A stretch of 64,000 nt of DNA from Pleurocapsa sp. PCC 7319. GTDB taxonomy: Bacteria; Cyanobacteriota; Cyanobacteriia; Cyanobacteriales; Xenococcaceae. Position numbers and translations under genes: made by a program. Shown piece after piece: positions 5,143 to 35,169 of the stretch (the first letter of the stretch is position 1; each line of letters starts with the position of its first letter). Where the stretch lies: the NCBI RefSeq assembly GCF_000332195.1, contig NZ_KB235922.1:3197322-3261321 (forward strand), in the 5' to 3' direction. Below the pieces are notes generated by a model, which saw only the letters and a program-made list of their open reading frames with translations, did no database searches and was not told the DNA's origin.

Positions 5143-5469
5143 TCAAAGCTTTAAGTTCTTGTAATTGTCGTTTGTTTTATTGGAATCAATATTCCGCACC
5201 AGATTTCTATGACTAGCACAGTCACAACCGTAAAGCTCAATTGCCATATCTCCTTCTCGGTCGATTTTAGCGGCGGTTTCAGCATCATAAGCACTACAAC
5301 CACAGCCCACAAAAGGATAGTCTGTCTCACTTTCAGGAATTTCAGCCATTTGACTATCTAATTCAGGAGCAGTAAAAACATACTCTTTAGCACTAACAGA
5401 ATTAGTCCCTAATAGAGAGAATACTATTGAACCAGAACAACCTAAAGTAGTCAGTAATTTCTTATTCAT
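5143..5469 (-). CDS. Small secreted cysteine-motif protein (GCDC family, copy A)
   Basis: The protein has 108 residues. The first 27 are a signal peptide-like segment ending NSVSA. The mature part carries GCGCSAYDAETAAKID and, about 20 residues later, AIELYGCDCASHRNLVRN. The second motif recurs in the protein at 9829-10218 (AVEIFGCDCIASINCLRRL), so the two are distant paralogs. Closely spaced Cys, Asp and His suggest a periplasmic or lumenal metal-binding protein, but no known family is recognised. No Zur-like box is visible upstream, unlike the other copy. Confidence 0.65.
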   Translation of the reverse strand: MNKKLLTTLGCSGSIVFSLLGTNSVSAKEYVFTAPELDSQMAEIPESETDYPFVGCGCSAYDAETAAKIDREGDMAIELYGCDCASHRNLVRNIDSNKTNDNYKNLKL

Positions 5470-6358: not shown

Positions 6359-7330
6359 TTAAACAGTAACGGAAGTAGCCAAGCAGTCATTTAACTGTTG
6401 GCGGAGTTTATCGGTATCTAAATGACGACCGATAAAGACTAACTGGTTAACAGGAGGAGTAGACCAAGGTTCGGACTTAATATCGTTGCGCTGTCCGCAG
6501 AGTTGGAAGATGTGACGTAATTGACTTCCTGCAAACCAAACAATTCCTTTAGCACGAAATACTTCGAGGGGAAGTCCTTCGTTTAAAAACTTTTGAAATT
6601 TATAGACATCAAAGGGTTGATCGCTCTTGAAGGACAGGGACACAAAACCATCGGCTTCTAGATGATGGGAATGATAGTGATGATGTTCGCGATGTTTTGC
6701 TTCAGGCAAACTATCTGTCTGAGTTAATCCTACATCTAAGATTAAAGGTAGGGGGACTTGAGCGTATTGGGTATGAATAATTCTGGGATTATTTTTAACC
6801 GAAGCAATATAGGTTTCTAATGCGGTTAATTGTTCTCTATCTACTAAATCGGTTTTATTCAACAAAAGAATATCCCCATAGGCAATCTGCTTATACGCCA
6901 CCTCACTCTCAAAATGTTCTGGGGTAAAGGTTTCTGCATCAACTAAGGTGATAACCGAGTCTAAGCGCGTAAAATCCCGAAAATCCGAACCAACAAAAGT
7001 CAAAATAATCGGCAAAGGGTCGGCTACACCAGTAGTTTCAATAATCAAACGCTCTACTTTTGATTCCCTAGCCAAGATTCGCGTTACTGCTTCTACCAAG
7101 CCTTCATTAATGGTGCAGCAAATACAACCGTTGCTCAATTCCACCATGTCATCGTCATAAGCTACCAAAAGTTGAGAGTCGATATTGATATCGCCAAACT
7201 CGTTAACTAATACTGCAACCTTTTGATTCAGTTCGTTTTGCAGGATTTGATTGAGTAAAGTGGTTTTCCCGCTACCGAGAAAGCCCGTAATTATAGTGAC
7301 TGGTAATCCTTGCTGGGAGATCTCTGACAT
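6359..7330 (-). CDS. COG0523 (CobW/ZNG1-type) GTPase, putative zinc metallochaperone
   Basis: The protein has 323 residues. It shows Walker [16 protein letters not shown], the metal-binding switch motif CICC ([12 protein letters not shown]), ETTGVADP, the NKTD guanine motif, and a C-terminal CobW_C domain ending in VFIGRHLD. A His-rich loop (EHHHYHSHH) precedes the C-terminal domain and is typical of the zinc-handling members. It is the first gene of an operon with folE and probably supplies zinc to FolE in the cytosol. An ATG at 7345 is also possible; 7330 was chosen because it gives the usual short leader before the P-loop. A Zur-box-like site lies 41 nt upstream. Confidence 0.93.
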
Positions 7331-7370
7331 AGTGAAGAGAAGCAATTTGGTTTACAAATATTCATTATAA

Positions 7371-7446: not shown

Positions 7447-7461
7447 TGATAATCGTTATCA
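7447..7461. promoter_or_regulatory. Zur box upstream of the broken COG0523 gene
   Basis: TGATAATCGTTATCA matches the 7-1-7 consensus at 13 of 14 specified positions. It lies 24 nt before the ATG at 7486, overlapping the expected core promoter. It may also serve the divergent operon. Confidence 0.75.
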
Positions 7462-7485: not shown

Positions 7486-7931
7486 ATGGATACATCGATA
7501 CAAGGCATCCCCGTTAGCATCATTACAGGATTCTTGGGTAGCGGAAAAACTACTCTACTCAACCATATTTTGACTCAACAGCAAGGATTGAAAACGGCGG
7601 TTCTAGTCAATGAGTTTGGCGAAATTGGTATTGACAACGAATTGATTATAAAGAGCGATGATGACATCGTAGAGCTAAATAATGGCTGTATTTGCTGCAC
7701 CATCAATGATGACTTAGTTAAAACCGTCCATAAAATTTTAGAGCGCAAAGAAAAACTAGATTATTTGATTGTAGAGACTACAGGAGTAGCCGATCCCGTA
7801 CCAGTAGTGGAAAGCGTTTTGGTATTGAAGATGATGAATGGAAAGCTACGCCCAAAAATCAATTAGTTTTTATCGGACAGAATTTAGAACCAGAGGAATT
7901 AAAAGAATTACTAGAAGGTTGTGTTGCTTAA
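7486..7931 (+). pseudogene. COG0523 GTPase with a large internal deletion and frame change
   Basis: The open frame from 7486 gives an intact N-terminus: [37 protein letters not shown]. Just after ADP the sequence jumps, in a different frame (from about 7809), to a C-terminal tail (EDDEWKATPKNQLVFIGQNL, then EELKELLEGC) ending at TAA 7929-7931. About 180 residues, including the NKxD motif and most of the CobW_C domain, are missing. The 126-residue frame 0 product ends at 7866 with 19 foreign residues. It keeps a Zur box, so transcription may continue although a working GTPase cannot be made. Confidence 0.85.
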
Positions 7932-8006
7932 AACAATACTGCTTTCATTATTAAGGCGATCGCTTTTGAGTAATTCCCACATATAGAAAAAAATTGACAT
8001 TTTGTT

Positions 8007-9572
8007 TTAATCGGTTGATTTCTGGGAACGCACTAATGATTCGGCTTCTTCTGGGGTCATGTGAGGAATTTCGTGACTAATAATCTTGTTACATATATCT
8101 ACACATTCATTACATATGTAAAGACCAGTATCTCCAATTGGTGGACCTGCAATCAAAAGCTCTACCTGCTTATTATTTTTTCTACAAAAAGAACAGCAGA
8201 CTTCTATGTCTAACAGGGGTTGGCTATCAGTTTTATTAGTCATTGTTTTATCCTGGGGTAATGTAGATTGAGTTTTCTTTTGTAGAGGTAGTAACTGGCT
8301 TCTCAACTGACGGCGAGATTTATATAAGCGTCCTTTCACCGCTGCTACGGAAATATTTAAACGAGTTGCCACCTCCTGCAAACTAAGTTGTTCTTGATAA
8401 AACAGCAAAGTTGCTTGGCGGTTTTTGTGAGATAGGGTATCGAGAGCTTGTAGCAACTCGGCGTAAGCTTCCTGCTGTTCGGCGACTTGCTGTGGATTGG
8501 GAGAACTTCCATTGGCTGGCGACGGTTCACTACCAAAATCTTTCATGGTTTCGAGAGAAAATGAAATTAGCTTACGACGACGTAAATAATTACGACAAAC
8601 ATTAAGAACGATACCGTATAGCCAACTTCTAAAACTATTTGGATTGCGGAGTTTTGGTAGAGACAAATAAGCTTGTAACATAGCATCTTGCACTAACTCA
8701 AGAGCTAATTCATTGTTGGCGATTATTCGATTGGCAAGATGTTTAGCCATTGGTTGATAACGCCATACAAGTTGACTAAATGCAGCTTTATCTCCCTTTT
8801 GTGCTAACAAAACCAATTCTTGATCGCTTTGAAAAGAAACGAAATTAAAACCATCATCGGCTAAATGATTATTGAAAGCAGATTTGTCCCGTCGAAACTC
8901 AGAAATTTCAGCTTGATAGTTATCTGTTTGGGTTAAACCAATATCTAAAATTAGAGGTAACGGTACTTTACCATATTCGCTGGGTAAGATTCTGTATCCT
9001 GGTTTAAGGTCTTCAATAAATGCTTTTAATTCAGTAATTTTATCTTCAGTTGCTAAATCAATCTTATTTAAAATCACCATGTCGCCATATCTGATTTGGC
9101 TTAAGGCAGCCTCGCTATCAAAATGTTTGGCATCAAAAGCTGCTGCATCCACAACCGTAATTACCGCATCAATATGAGTTAGAAACTTTAATTCTGTGGA
9201 GAGAAAAGTCAGAATAATTGGCAACGGATCGGCTAATCCTGTGGTTTCAATTACTAAATAATCTACTTTTTCTTCTCTTTCTAAAACCCGATAAACTGCA
9301 TCTACTAAACTGTCATTGATGGTACAACAGATACAACCATTATCCAGTTCTACCATATCTGATTCCACTGAAATAAGTAGTTGCTCGTCAATATTAATAT
9401 CGCCAAATTCATTGACCAATACCGCTATTTTCAGATTATCTTTATTTTGTAAAATTTGATTGAGTAGGGTGGTTTTGCCACTACCTAAGAAACCAGTAAT
9501 TATCGTTACTGGCATTCCGCTTTTGGGTAGGGATGGCAAGGCATCGGACAGGCTGAAGTTTAGACGAGTCAT
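8007..9572 (-). CDS. COG0523 GTPase domain fused to ECF sigma factor and ClpX-type zinc finger
   Basis: A single 521-residue frame joins three modules. Residues 20-250 are a COG0523 G domain: GFLGSGKTT at 27-35, CICC at 80-83, ETTGLADP at 109-116, NKID at 169-172. At FVSFQSDQ (residues 244-251), where relatives enter the CobW_C domain, the sequence switches to [20 protein letters not shown], the start of a sigma-70 region 2. Region 4 ends near 430 ([20 protein letters not shown]). A linker leads to a ClpX-like C4 zinc finger (CSFC 460-463, CNEC 487-490). The CobW_C domain is absent. ATG 8243 (residue 444) has AGGA 7 nt upstream, so the zinc finger could also be made alone. A perfect Zur box lies 30 nt upstream. 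The junction could be a genuine fusion, a recent deletion or an assembly error. Confidence 0.85.
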
Positions 9573-9601: not shown

Positions 9602-9616
9602 TGATAATGATTATCA
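9602..9616. promoter_or_regulatory. Perfect Zur box upstream of the GTPase-sigma fusion gene
   Basis: TGATAATGATTATCA is a perfect 7-1-7 palindrome 30 nt upstream of the fusion gene start at 9572. It is one of the two best sites in the window, with the box before znuA. Confidence 0.85.
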
Positions 9617-9782: not shown

Positions 9783-9797
9783 TGATAACGATTATCA
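9783..9797. promoter_or_regulatory. Zur box upstream of GCDC protein B
   Basis: TGATAACGATTATCA differs from the perfect palindrome at one position. It lies 31 nt before the ATG at 9829. Confidence 0.8.
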
Positions 9798-9828: not shown

Positions 9829-10218
9829 ATGAAAGTACCTTCCTTCTTGGCGAGTAACCGTAGAGCTATTGTTTCAATAATCTCTTTACTAGCAATTTCT
9901 AAATCTAGTAATGCTGTCGAAGCCACTAAGATACAAGCACTCCTAACCAAAGGATCTTTTAGCCCTAACCAAACAACATCAAAAGAATCCCTCAAAGCCT
10001 GTGTCCGTCATCCCAAAGTGGCTCGATACTTTTGCGCTGAAGCTCAACAATTGCAGGATGTTCGGAAAAATATCCCAGAAATCGATCCAGTAGCTCGCCC
10101 TGAAGATGCTTTACTAAATGTTACTGATGAAGAAAGTGATACTGCTGTAGAAATATTTGGTTGTGATTGTATTGCATCAATTAATTGTTTGCGTCGTCTT
10201 CGCAATCAATTGCCTTAA
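9829..10218 (+). CDS. Small secreted cysteine-motif protein (GCDC family, copy B), Zur-box controlled
   Basis: The protein has 129 residues. A signal peptide-like N-terminus ends at SKSSNA near residue 29. The mature protein has CVRHPKVARYFC and, near the end, AVEIFGCDCIASINCLRRLR, matching the GCDC region of the protein at 5143-5469. Six Cys plus Asp and His are available for metal binding or disulfides. A Zur-type box directly upstream implies induction when zinc is scarce. A periplasmic zinc scavenger, or a chaperone for an exported enzyme, would fit. This is inference, because no characterised family is recognised. Confidence 0.7.
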   Translation: MKVPSFLASNRRAIVSIISLLAISKSSNAVEATKIQALLTKGSFSPNQTTSKESLKACVRHPKVARYFCAEAQQLQDVRKNIPEIDPVARPEDALLNVTDEESDTAVEIFGCDCIASINCLRRLRNQLP

Positions 10219-17964: not shown

Positions 17965-19164
17965 TTACAATCGATCTCGATGAAATAAGAACTTCATCGT
18001 TAGATTGTTTATTGTTTCCCAGTTTTCCTCTCTGCTTTTTAGCTGCGATTGCTCCTCTTGTCGTTTTTTCTTAAGTTCCTGCTGTTTCTGCTGGCGGTAA
18101 CTCATAAGTTCGGATAATCCTCGACCAGTCGGTGCATTCTCGATATCTGATGGAACTTGGATTGCAGCCTCTTGCATAACTGCTTCGTTAACATAGATCG
18201 GACTGTTCATGAGTAATGCTAAGGCGATCGCATCACTCGGTCGCGCATCTACTTCTTTAATTTGACCTTCACAATCTAGAGAAACTATGGCGTAATAAAT
18301 ATCTTCATGCAGAGATTCCACTCTAACCGACTTTAAGTTCACATTGGCAGCCTGTAATATATTGGACATAAACTGGAAAGTCATCGGTCTGGTTAGGGAA
18401 GTTTCTGTAAGAATTTGAGCGATCGCTTCTCCTGAAGGAATTCCCACAAAAATAGGTAAAAATCGACGATTCACTTCATCCCACAAAATTGCTACACAAC
18501 TGTTTGAATTGAGAACACTGTTTGGAAGCTCGACAATTGGTAAATAAATCAAATCTGCAACGGTAACTTGTATCATAGGTTCGATTCTTTTATCTTCTAG
18601 GTAAAGTGGTATAAATCTTTCTTTTAGCTGTTTTCTGGATTTATGCAGACGACCTTTGACTGCTGTCACAGAACTATTTAAAAGTGCAGAAATTTCGTAT
18701 ATGGTTAATTGCTCAAAATAAAACAGTAATACTGTAGTTCTATTTTTGGGAGATAAAGAATTAACTGCTTCTAGCACTAGATTGTATAGTTCTTGTTCCT
18801 GAGCAACTTTCATCGGGCTGGGAGAAGTTGCGCCAAAAATGTCTGCGTCTACTTTCATTCCGCCCATAATCTCTTCAAAGGAGAGGAAATTAATTTTTTG
18901 ATGGCGAATATGACTACGGCAAACATTTAAAACAATTCCACAAAACCAAGATTGAAAGCGGTCGTCATCTCGCAGTCGATCTATCGAAAGATAAGCTTGC
19001 AAAAGAGCTTCTTGAACCAGATCCTGAGCAATATCTACTCTGCCAACCATTTTTCGAGCAATGCCGAATGCGAGCGAGCGATGGCGTTTGATTAAATGGC
19101 TGAATGCAACTTTGTCACCGCAGCGGGCTAAAGCTACGAGTTCGGGATCTGTTTTTTGACTCAC
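17965..19164 (-). CDS. ECF-like sigma factor fused to a bifunctional nuclease (DUF151) domain
   Basis: The protein has 399 residues. Residues 1-175 are sigma-70 regions 2 and 4 ([58 protein letters not shown]). From Met197 a BFN/DUF151 domain follows (RRFLPIFVGIPSGEAIAQIL, VDARPSDAIALAL). A Gln/Lys-rich tail ends the protein. The sigma part is clearly related to that of the fusion at 8007-9572 (same ELV-LA-GDK-AFS start), so the two are paralogs with different C-terminal modules. Presumably the BFN domain senses or modifies a partner. No anti-sigma gene is adjacent and no Zur box is seen upstream. Confidence 0.88.
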   Translation of the reverse strand: MSQKTDPELVALARCGDKVAFSHLIKRHRSLAFGIARKMVGRVDIAQDLVQEALLQAYLSIDRLRDDDRFQSWFCGIVLNVCRSHIRHQKINFLSFEEIMGGMKVDADIFGATSPSPMKVAQEQELYNLVLEAVNSLSPKNRTTVLLFYFEQLTIYEISALLNSSVTAVKGRLHKSRKQLKERFIPLYLEDKRIEPMIQVTVADLIYLPIVELPNSVLNSNSCVAILWDEVNRRFLPIFVGIPSGEAIAQILTETSLTRPMTFQFMSNILQAANVNLKSVRVESLHEDIYYAIVSLDCEGQIKEVDARPSDAIALALLMNSPIYVNEAVMQEAAIQVPSDIENAPTGRGLSELMSYRQQKQQELKKKRQEEQSQLKSREENWETINNLTMKFLFHRDRL

Positions 19165-19319
19165 AACTTCTACTAATTTGAAAACACGTATATTTATTAG
19201 TGGTAAAAATACAAGAAAAGGTTACTTTTTTGAGCATAATTTTTTCAATAGCCTCCAAAAAGCTATAGTTCAGCTATATTGACGATCAAGATCGCTTGCG
19301 ATCGCAAGCTTATTAATTA

Positions 19320-31893: not shown

Positions 31894-32982
31894 TCAACCA
31901 AAACCCTTCCCTCTTTTGGACTCAGACCAAATAATTAGCTCCCCATCCTGACCCCCAGCAGCCAACTGTTTGCCATCCTGACTCCAAGCTAAACAGGAAA
32001 AACCACCCTTAGCACCTTCTAATATTTGCCCTACTTGTTTGGCTTTTGTCCACAAGCACAACCAACCATCATCCGCAGCAGAAGCCAGTAATAAATTATG
32101 GGGATGGAACAGTAGGGCTTGGACTTTTCGCTCGTGCAAATCTAAAACACGGGCATTCCAACCATCTTTATCATCAACTTCTTTTTTCCAGACGGCAATG
32201 CCTTCTATACTCGATGCTGCTAACAAAGGTGCATTGCTCGATCCTCTTTGCGACCAAGTTAGATTGGAAATCTTACCAGGAAAACCCCGCATCATCCAAG
32301 GATGAGGACTGCCGTATTCTAAAACGGTAATGGTATTGTCAAAATTACCAGAGGCAATATATTTACTGTCCCCAGACCAAGCCGTAACAATACTAGCTGA
32401 GGGCATATCAATCAGATAGGGGTCATCATCCCAATCTATAGTAGACCATACTTTGACTCCTCCATTCCCTGCGATCGCAATACTTTCCCCATTCGGTCGC
32501 CAAGCTAAATCTAGAACAGAAGAGTTAGCAAAGGGCAGAGTAGTTATAACTGTTTGAGCATCGGCATCCCAGATTTGCACGTAACGCCCTAAACTAAAGG
32601 CTAAGTGGTTACAAGCAGGACTCCAAGCTAGTTTATCGACCCATGAGGGCGCATTATCTAGAGTAGCGATTAAATCTGGAGATCCCCCTCTTATCCCCCG
32701 AATTTCGGGGGAAGCCATAGACCAAACTCTAACCTTGCCATCCTGTCCACCAGCAGCTAAAAACTTGCCATCCGAGGAAAAAGCCAAACAGTCAACCGAT
32801 ACTAAACCCGCAGATAATAAACTAACTAGGTTGCCATCTTGCCATACAACCACTTCCCCCGCAGCCGAACTAGCAGCTAATAGACCATTGGACGACCAGG
32901 CTACTGCGGTAACGTATTCTGAGAGACTACCCTGCCAGTGCGGTTGAAATAAGACTTTTTTCTTCGCACCTACACCATACAT
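31894..32982 (-). CDS. WD40-repeat protein, last gene of the Zur-box operon
   Basis: The protein has 362 residues with about seven WD40 repeats (for example LAFSSDGKFLAAGGQDGKVR, LAWSPACNHLAFSLGRYVQI, LAWSQDGKQLAAGGQDGELI). There is no signal peptide, so it is cytosolic. Its start overlaps the stop of the truncated COG0523 gene by 13 nt. It probably served as a protein-interaction partner of that GTPase. The function is unknown. Confidence 0.88.
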   Translation of the reverse strand: MYGVGAKKKVLFQPHWQGSLSEYVTAVAWSSNGLLAASSAAGEVVVWQDGNLVSLLSAGLVSVDCLAFSSDGKFLAAGGQDGKVRVWSMASPEIRGIRGGSPDLIATLDNAPSWVDKLAWSPACNHLAFSLGRYVQIWDADAQTVITTLPFANSSVLDLAWRPNGESIAIAGNGGVKVWSTIDWDDDPYLIDMPSASIVTAWSGDSKYIASGNFDNTITVLEYGSPHPWMMRGFPGKISNLTWSQRGSSNAPLLAASSIEGIAVWKKEVDDKDGWNARVLDLHERKVQALLFHPHNLLLASAADDGWLCLWTKAKQVGQILEGAKGGFSCLAWSQDGKQLAAGGQDGELIIWSESKRGKGFG

Positions 32983-33470
32983 TGTTTAAAGTCCTCTCTC
33001 AGTTGTGCCTCATCCAGATTGCGACCGATAAACACCAATTCATTCTTACGGGTTTCTCCTTCTTTCCAAGGGCGGTCTGGTCTACCATCCAGTAGCATAT
33101 GTACTCCCTGAAAGACAAAGCGATCGCTTTCTCCTGCAACATTTAAAATGCCTTTCATGCGGAAGATATCTACCCCTTTAGTTTGTAGTAGGTTACTCAA
33201 CCAGTTATTTAGTTTTTGTCCGTCTAGTTCTCCAGATTCTACTATGGCAAAGGATTTTACCGTCTCGTCGTGTTCATGGGCATCTTCGTTTAAAAATTCG
33301 GGGTCGATTTCTAAAGCACGGTCTAAATCGAATGCCTGTACTCCTAATAAAGCATCCATTCCTAGTTCAGAATTTTGGGTACGATAAATTTTTGCCATCC
33401 CGTTCATGGCTTTGATTTTACTTTCTAATTCTTCTAACTCTTCGGGAGTCACGAGATCGGTTTTATTGAA
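32970..33470 (-). pseudogene. 5'-truncated COG0523 GTPase (C-terminal part only)
   Basis: Coding sense begins in mid-protein at FNKTDLVTPEELEELESKI, the guanine-specificity motif, and continues through KGILNVAGESDRFVFQGVHM to VFIGRNLDEAQL of the CobW_C domain. The P-loop, CICC and ADP motifs are absent. A stop lies just upstream. GTG 33452 could still start a 160-residue CobW_C-like protein. It sits in frame with its operon neighbours, so the truncation may be recent. Confidence 0.8.
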
Positions 33471-33535: not shown

Positions 33536-34351
33536 TTACCTCTCGCAAACATGAGTCGGATCGTCCGCTTTTTCGGCAAATTCTAAACCCCTAGCCAAAC
33601 GCCAAGCAAAAATCGGCGGTAAACCAGCATCTAAAATAGCAGCGCAGGTTGTTTGATAGTCATACTCCACTTCCCGCAAGTTTACTGCTTCTGTCTCCGT
33701 ATCATAAATGACATAGGTAGCATTGGGACGACCATGACGGGGTTCGCCTACCGAACCGACATTGATAATTCGTTTCAGGGGAGTGTTAAAACTAACAACA
33801 GGTTGTTCTTTTTTATTAGGTTGACGAACTTTAACCTGTAATTGTCCAGAATCTAGGGTGCGAACATAGGGAACGTGGGTATGTCCGCAAAATAAGATAT
33901 CTGCATCGCTGGAGAGGACTCTTTCTAAAGCAGTAAAAGCATCCATTTCGGGTAACAAATATTCGTGGTTGCTACTAGGGCTACCATGTACGAAACAGAG
34001 ATTATCTTCTTTATAGGTATGGGGTAATTGAGCTAGATATTCCCTAACTTCGGGTTTTACTTGTTTATTTGTCCATTCATGGGCGATTTTGCCTCTTTTT
34101 TCTGCTAACAGGGAAGGATAACTACAGTCACAGGCATTTAATCCTTCGACAACATCTTCATCCCAACATCCTTGTACGGTGGGAATATCTAAAGAACGAA
34201 TTTGTTCTACTACCTCATTGGGATCAGGACCATAACCCACTAAATCCCCCAGACAATAAATCTTTTCGGCTTTTTGGTGATCGATATCCAGTAAAACTGC
34301 ATCTAAAGCTGCATAATTACCATGAATACAGGACATTACTGCTATTTTCAT
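33536..34351 (-). CDS. Calcineurin-like metallophosphoesterase
   Basis: The protein has 271 residues. The metal-binding motifs are present: SCIHGNYAALDAV (D replaced by C, H kept), GDLVGYGPDPNEVVE, GCWDEDVV, FVHGSPSS, FCGHTHVPYV. The DxH pair reads CIH, an unusual change. It overlaps the upstream P-loop gene by 4 nt, so translation is coupled. Zur control through that gene implies a job in zinc starvation. The substrate is unknown. Confidence 0.88.
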   Translation of the reverse strand: MKIAVMSCIHGNYAALDAVLLDIDHQKAEKIYCLGDLVGYGPDPNEVVEQIRSLDIPTVQGCWDEDVVEGLNACDCSYPSLLAEKRGKIAHEWTNKQVKPEVREYLAQLPHTYKEDNLCFVHGSPSSNHEYLLPEMDAFTALERVLSSDADILFCGHTHVPYVRTLDSGQLQVKVRQPNKKEQPVVSFNTPLKRIINVGSVGEPRHGRPNATYVIYDTETEAVNLREVEYDYQTTCAAILDAGLPPIFAWRLARGLEFAEKADDPTHVCER

Positions 34352-35142
34352 ACTACTTCTAATTCAGTTGCTAAAGACTCTTTTACTTGTTGTTGGTAAT
34401 AATTAATTGCCGATTCGGGAACACAGCAATCTCGGACAGTTTGGGCAATTTCAGCCTTATCTAAATTACTACCCACGATTTCAAAACCACTCTTGCGATT
34501 TGGTTTACCATTTAACCAACGGGGTAAATTTAAAGGTTTAAACTCAAGTTCGGATTTTCCTAACTTAAAGTCACCATGATAAATTAGTCCGTCTTCTAAA
34601 TCGAAGATTCCCTTTGCCCGAACCACCTCACCATAAGCACCTTGGGTAAGTTCTAGCCAAAACGTAGCCAGACTGTCAAAATCTAAAATTTCCCCTGTCA
34701 AACGAGCGCATTCCCTTGCGTCTTGCGCCGACGCGGGGTCGCTCGTCAAAACTCCCCGATGAATCTGTAAGGCAGTAGTTGGCTTGGTGATGCGATCTCC
34801 TGGAATAATTTCATCCGCCCAAGTCTTTAATTCTGCACTATCTGTATCGTCAGGGATTATGGCTACTCGATGAGAATTAAAAGTTTGCAGTAAAGGTTCA
34901 ATTCCTGCTAAATCCAAATACCACGGAATTTCAACATAAGTAGTGGTTTTGTCTAATTCCGCTTCTTCTCCTGTCTGATAAAGCTTTAGTTGGGGATATT
35001 CACTTTGGAGGTATGTGGCATCAATAGGTATGGAATCGGTTTGCGGACTGAAATAACCTACAGGTTTATCGATTTGGGCTATTTGTTGATGAATCCAGTG
35101 GGTTTTACCCGCACCTGGGGGACTGGCGATCGCGATAATCAT
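34348..35142 (-). CDS. Divergent COG0523-like P-loop protein
   Basis: The protein has 264 residues. The P-loop ASPPGAGKTHWIHQQI is intact, but there is no CICC and no NKxD. The C-terminal part has GAYGEVVRAKGIFDLEDG and FEIVGSNLDKAEI, which match the CobW_C domain of COG0523 proteins. It appears to be a reduced or degenerate relative. About 10-15 residues in the middle (DPASAQDARECAR) derive from a hairpin repeat inserted in frame at 34702-34746. It is the first gene of the operon and lies 12 nt after a Zur box. Confidence 0.75.
   Translation of the reverse strand: MIIAIASPPGAGKTHWIHQQIAQIDKPVGYFSPQTDSIPIDATYLQSEYPQLKLYQTGEEAELDKTTTYVEIPWYLDLAGIEPLLQTFNSHRVAIIPDDTDSAELKTWADEIIPGDRITKPTTALQIHRGVLTSDPASAQDARECARLTGEILDFDSLATFWLELTQGAYGEVVRAKGIFDLEDGLIYHGDFKLGKSELEFKPLNLPRWLNGKPNRKSGFEIVGSNLDKAEIAQTVRDCCVPESAINYYQQQVKESLATELEVV
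34702..34746. repeat. Hairpin repeat inside the P-loop gene
   Basis: The arms ACGAGCG/CGCTCGT flank GCGTCTTGCGCCGACGCGGG. A second copy with the same two blocks lies at 40321-40390, where it carries an extra internal hairpin. Confidence 0.65.
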
Positions 35143-35154
35143 GGAATGACATTT

Positions 35155-35169
35155 TGATAACGATTATCA
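35155..35169. promoter_or_regulatory. Zur box upstream of the P-loop/phosphoesterase/WD40 operon
   Basis: TGATAACGATTATCA, identical to the boxes before thrS and GCDC protein B. It lies 12 nt before the ATG at 35142. Confidence 0.85.

Follow-up and report, generated by a model that had tools for sequence, protein, structure and literature searches.

A COG0523 GTPase domain joined in frame to an ECF sigma factor with a ClpX-type zinc finger in one Pleurocapsa genome

Two described systems come closest to the gene analysed here. The Zur-regulated GTPases of the COG0523 (G3E) family share with it the G domain, the CICC motif and the Zur box, and the main text describing them (PMC2770081) contains neither the word 'fusion' nor 'fused'. 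The cyanobacterial sigma factors with a zf-C4_ClpX accessory domain (Gevin et al. 2024, PMC11119718) share regions 2 and 4 and the C-terminal finger; CobW is not mentioned in that main text, whose 29 accessory domains are listed in the supplement. Within the accessible open-licence literature, supplements aside, no COG0523–sigma fusion was found. The gene of Pleurocapsa sp. PCC 7319 unites both systems: two gene types that are each known already are fused in it, a join that is present in the assembly and that has to date turned up in a single genome.

The fused frame and its Zur box

The window, that is, the whole 64,000-nt stretch of DNA that we analysed, contains on its minus strand a single uninterrupted frame (P0001), which sits inside a 6.39-Mb contig.

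8007–9572 (−): fused frame P0001, 521 codons (open frame and Pfam)
8988–9512 (−): COG0523/cobW G domain, residues 21–195 (Pfam PF02492, E = 8.7e-57)
8571–8768 (−): sigma region 2 (Sigma70_r2), residues 269–334 (Pfam PF04542, E = 2e-15)
8304–8459 (−): sigma region 4 (Sigma70_r4_2), residues 372–423 (Pfam PF08281, E = 9.7e-10)
8076–8198 (−): ClpX-type C4 zinc finger (zf-C4_ClpX), residues 459–499 (Pfam PF06689, E = 5.6e-12)
9602–9616 (no strand assigned): Zur box TGATAATGATTATCA, 29 nt before the ATG of P0001, no mismatch to the 15-mer

All four domains exceed the curated Pfam cut-offs, in the order cobW, Sigma70_r2, Sigma70_r4_2, zf-C4_ClpX, and the frame as read bears out the initial annotation, which had described a COG0523 domain, an ECF sigma factor and a ClpX-type finger in one chain of 521 codons. 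P0001 has the features of an ECF factor (regions 2 and 4, a short linker and no region 3 match; Sigma70_ECF score of 21.7 bits against a cut-off of 21.1), and its C-terminal finger places it, by Pfam and by alignment, in the cyanobacterial sigma r2–r4_2–zf-C4_ClpX kind (sigma-ZF). The NKID motif, the other nucleotide motifs and the CSFC...CNEC cysteines are readable in the translation, and we ascribe to them their usual roles. CobW_C, which is present in most COG0523 members, was also said to have been replaced, and indeed has no Pfam match in P0001, with a match in the neighbouring paralogue (6359–7345). Elsewhere in the window, two frames (32970–33452 (−) and 34348–35142 (−)) match CobW_C without a cobW G domain and have a one-mismatch Zur box nearby, at 35155.

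The Zur box is perfect, as had been proposed, at a distance of 29 rather than 30 nt. The 15-mer that served as the pattern, which we take to represent the Zur box of the literature, matches the window 11 times with at most two mismatches, against 0.76 matches expected, and the genes of the window that we named by eye (folE, COG0523, threonyl-tRNA synthetase and znuABC-like genes) fit this richness. Among ten intact COG0523 relatives (nine close ones and L070, which is 61% identical), each searched over 150 nt upstream, three have a perfect box 29–31 nt before the gene (L060, L061 and L068) and three a box with one mismatch at 24–60 nt; in the other four the box lies at a greater distance or is missing. 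The frames at 5143–5469 (−) and 9829–10218 (+) encode small proteins that are probably exported, have a GCDC motif in common and match nothing in Pfam; a one-mismatch Zur box at 9783–9797 belongs to the latter.

Stand-alone relatives and the sigma promoter

The first half of P0001 matches COG0523 genes in the 60 relatives searched. Nine of these loci are 85–92% identical to it over about the first 251 residues, and run on to 335–346 amino acids with a tail that is CobW_C-like by eye. A sigma gene beside the COG0523 gene was seen in none of the COG0523 loci that we read, so the intermediate stage of a joining is unseen. One further COG0523 match lies within an open frame of 1,034 amino acids (G028:C11:5299–5928), possibly another COG0523 fusion.

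The second half was sought in overlapping sets of genomes drawn from the phylum (386), the family (27) and the order (388), with at most six candidates scored in the genomes listed for the phylum and order searches. The close relatives (in G043, G019, G017, G623, G639, G485, G463, G633, G474, G660, G467 and G429) have open frames of only 122–301 amino acids in whole genomes, so that none is seen joined to COG0523; wherever the start is visible in the three sets the same holds; the G017 gene lacks its 5′ part, close to the end of a short contig. Scanning 84,980 species genomes with a pattern, a set that may not include the genome of the window, yielded 62 loci. The best 17 of these (L093–L109) are 57–67% identical to the sigma part of P0001, with frames of 249–318 amino acids in 16; L109 is split, and its second piece has a frame of 183. 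Upstream of these loci, the reading remains open for at most 48 codons before the first piece. No Zur box with two or fewer mismatches lies in the 300 nt upstream of these 17 loci, the best having three (L100). Twelve further genomes of the genus, of which two are 81–82% complete, yielded no sigma-ZF gene, and among them only G005 has a match at E = 1e-20 (34% identical, in a frame of 443 amino acids).

The initial annotation had suggested that the protein, if made, could tie zinc shortage to promoter choice, and had proposed a search for the same domain order in other genomes. That search, now run, met the order in no other checkable genome, and with stand-alone relatives for each half and no COG0523-joined gene among the other sigma-ZF genes whose upstream side is visible, an established three-domain zinc sigma factor is not supported. 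In the tree, the sigma part groups weakly with Hyella patelloides and the partial G017 row, both of the same family (80/82 and 83/56). We also considered lateral gain of the sigma part from afar and set it aside, as this placement favours descent within the family, with losses. One stand-alone sigma-ZF gene (L225) lies on a 38-kb plasmid of Tolypothrix sp. PCC 7910 that is typed as mobilizable.

The stand-alone genes have a promoter-like pattern in common. GTAAC-TTT-N13-(C/T)CACTA occurs once in each of the 17 loci L093–L109, and nowhere else in them on either strand; it begins 64–69 nt ahead of the conserved start, a position that corresponds to the join. The full pattern also precedes L117 and the broken copy L121, and is absent from L111, L118, L119 and L120. 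Among the sigma-BFN loci, in which an ECF sigma factor carries a bifunctional-nuclease (BFN) domain, it is full before the gene of the window, L110 and L115, shortened (that is, not full) before L116 and absent before L112–L114; the Chloroflexi loci L112–L116 have BFN-like ends by eye, and the match in G555 is likewise a sigma-BFN gene like that of the window. In 14 chosen genomes, perfect GTAACCTTT-N13-CCACTA sites number exactly one in each of the nine that carry a sigma-ZF or sigma-BFN gene, by position just before that gene, and none in the five non-carriers; allowing one mismatch adds nine sites in the carriers and three in the non-carriers, with 12 for the reversed control over all 14. 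Two of the one-mismatch sites recur with nearly the same spacer in the related G043, G474 and G485, and could be further sigma-ZF targets.

The form of this pattern resembles that of an ECF promoter, which makes self-activation likely: judging by ECF practice, the sigma-ZF factor of the relatives probably drives its own gene from GTAAC-TTT-N13-CCACTA. That sigma-ZF genes have this promoter in common with some of the sigma-BFN genes, over a range that reaches from cyanobacteria to one Dehalococcoidia locus (L115), can be tested by itself. The fusion gene has neither this promoter nor the sigma gene's own start codon, and the perfect site of its genome stands before a sister gene 9.6 kb away.

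17965–19164 (−): ECF sigma factor with BFN domain, sister of the sigma part and predicted target (Pfam; 45% identity; promoter site)
19198–19225 (−): the only perfect GTAACCTTT-N13-CCACTA site found in the genome, before the sigma-BFN gene (genome scan)

Apart from this site, 32 sites in the genome have two mismatches and no site has one (the reversed control gives 13 altogether); copies of two repeated sequences account for 15 of the 32. A scan with spacers of N13–N15 returned two sites, the sigma-BFN one and one spaced by N15 at C7:3851451, and the wrong spacing N14, taken as a control, gave 20 sites with at most two mismatches against 28 for the reversed control, none of them perfect.

The join and its probable origin

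The two halves meet at a short word that recurs in relatives of each.

8822–8831 (−): join word CAAAGCGATC, 10 nt, found at the matching place in five of ten COG0523 loci and in two stand-alone sigma-ZF loci (L072 and L083)
7932–7979 (no strand assigned): 48-nt flank, similar to the stretch that lies about 94–140 nt past the stop codon of G029's intact COG0523 gene (L061; local score 44)

The fusion reads TTTTCAAAGCGATCAAGAATTG at the join, where the COG0523 genes read TTTCCAAAGCGATCGCCC in five of the ten loci printed and the stand-alone sigma genes L072 and L083 read GAG-CAAAGCGATC, with CAA as codon 4 (L073 is one letter off the word). The join falls at this codon 4 of the sigma gene and cuts CobW_C near its first strand. 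We infer from these relatives that CAAAGCGATC was present in both lost parent genes. At the protein level, the COG0523 loci have SDRP in eight of ten cases (SERP in L062, SARP in L070), and the sigma loci have mostly SDL or SDP, with the variants SDT, SDR and NE; the close sigma relative in G019 reads SEPSDT, that is, Pro where the word needs Gln. It had been suggested that Asp-Gln was common to both parts at the join. A common piece does exist, but it is Gln-Ser-Asp (CAAAGCGATC) rather than Asp-Gln; as the genome's own paralogue at 6359–7345 reads SDQP, the lost parent may nevertheless have had Asp-Gln. The last six letters of the word, GCGATC, belong to the HIP1 word GCGATCGC, which is common in cyanobacteria (PMC4390886). 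Downstream of the join, codons 253 and 255 are in-frame TTGs, before which no ribosome site stands out by eye.

The genome was searched for another copy of the COG0523 tail, and none was found (the best match, at 51%, and all others are other COG0523 genes or remnants), nor was a second perfect sigma promoter beyond the sigma-BFN site, which makes a deletion between neighbours the simplest origin. The 48-nt flank, which lies directly beyond the remnant of a second COG0523 gene, scores highest with L061 out of 23 loci tried (44, the next being 35; the best of 300 crude shuffles against L061 reached 33). Given this resemblance to a COG0523 3′ flank, the sigma gene seems to occupy the place of the former tail and some of the flank. 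The remnant itself (7486–7931 (+)) has an internal deletion of about 570 nt relative to G018, its tail in another frame at 7805–7931 and a one-mismatch Zur box at 7447; G018 has three COG0523 genes in the same order, the third of them intact.

We therefore think it probable that a COG0523 gene with a Zur box became linked, in frame, to codon 4 of an ECF sigma-ZF gene that had stood alone. A deletion or a comparable illegitimate event at the shared 10-nt word would have brought this about, in a single lineage to judge from the genomes seen. The initial annotation had offered a deletion of this kind as its fallback, with the sigma gene independent of the COG0523 gene beforehand, and it is now favoured by the stand-alone relatives, by the occurrence of the word in some relatives of each parent and by the missing second copies. 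In this scenario, a sigma gene would first have come to lie beside the COG0523 gene; a deletion at the word would then have removed CobW_C together with the sigma gene's own promoter and start codon, and would have set the sigma factor behind the Zur promoter. With its own promoter and start codon removed, the sigma factor is probably produced solely as the C-terminal part of a zinc-starvation protein.

That the assembly has united two distant genes would account for a fusion not seen elsewhere, but we regard such an artefact as highly improbable, given the position inside a 6.39-Mb contig, the failure to find a second copy of either missing part in the genome and a far flank that resembles that of an intact COG0523 gene.

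Possible fates of the chimera

An origin by joining leaves room for a chimera without function, a by-product that is misfolded, whether expressed or silent, and that is decaying like the neighbouring COG0523 remnant. We give this a little less than an even chance, which overlaps with that of the joining itself. The sigma-ZF part of P0001 is the furthest of 17 rows from the consensus (0.683; many of the rows in that consensus are Calothrix-like) and, at the 90 columns that are fixed in the other rows, has seven changes of its own, as many as L105 (the others have 0–3), so that it may have lost its function. The confinement to a single genome, the cut through CobW_C, the large deletion in the next COG0523 gene and the broken look of several stand-alone sigma-ZF genes (L108, L109, L117, L118, L120, L121 and G463) point the same way, yet 521 codons are free of stops, the zinc-finger cysteines and both sigma regions are retained and the Zur box is perfect. 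The branch of the G domain that leads to this genome has 12 synonymous and 3 non-synonymous codon changes (10:4, 15:5 and 9:4 for intact relatives), counted only at codons where the other three rows and the outgroup agree; this also speaks against decay, although the count may mostly predate the join.

The G domain may have kept its binding of metal and nucleotide, but its chaperone work is likely impaired without CobW_C. Provided that the chimera folds and engages RNA polymerase, a shortage of zinc would turn the sigma factor on, and its one perfect target site in the genome would be the promoter of the sister sigma-BFN gene. A selected new regulator, in which one chain combines a GTPase that binds metal with a sigma factor and ties zinc shortage (and perhaps metal or GTP loading) to promoter choice, would agree with modules that all pass the Pfam cut-offs, with the Zur box and with a single cognate promoter inside the same Zur-box-rich region. 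However, we consider this unlikely, as no relative is seen with this domain order and the sigma-BFN promoter lacks a Zur box within two mismatches. More doubtful still is a newborn but working zinc-starvation sigma factor, released by Zur, tuned by the metal or GTP of its G domain and firing the sigma-BFN promoter; if true, one deletion would have turned a self-activating switch into a zinc-responsive cascade. Whatever its fate, the joining that we favour would be an apparent natural promoter swap, in which a sigma factor was cut from a self-placed promoter that occurs once per genome and put behind a zinc-starvation one, and the fusion makes such a one-step change of regulatory wiring directly testable.

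Set against the known systems, P0001 differs from the Zur-regulated COG0523 GTPases in the truncated CobW_C and the appended sigma factor, and from the cyanobacterial sigma–zf-C4_ClpX factors (PMC11119718) in the added N-terminal COG0523 domain and the loss of promoter and start codon. ECF36 factors likewise carry an extra domain on an ECF factor, some members having N-terminal extensions; however, the ECF36 extension consists of membrane helices and DUF2275, whereas that of P0001 is a GTPase domain, seen once. The ECF sigma-BFN factors of cyanobacteria and Chloroflexi (the gene at 17965–19164, and L110 and L112–L116 by eye from their ends) have a related sigma part, with a nuclease domain where P0001 has its zinc finger.
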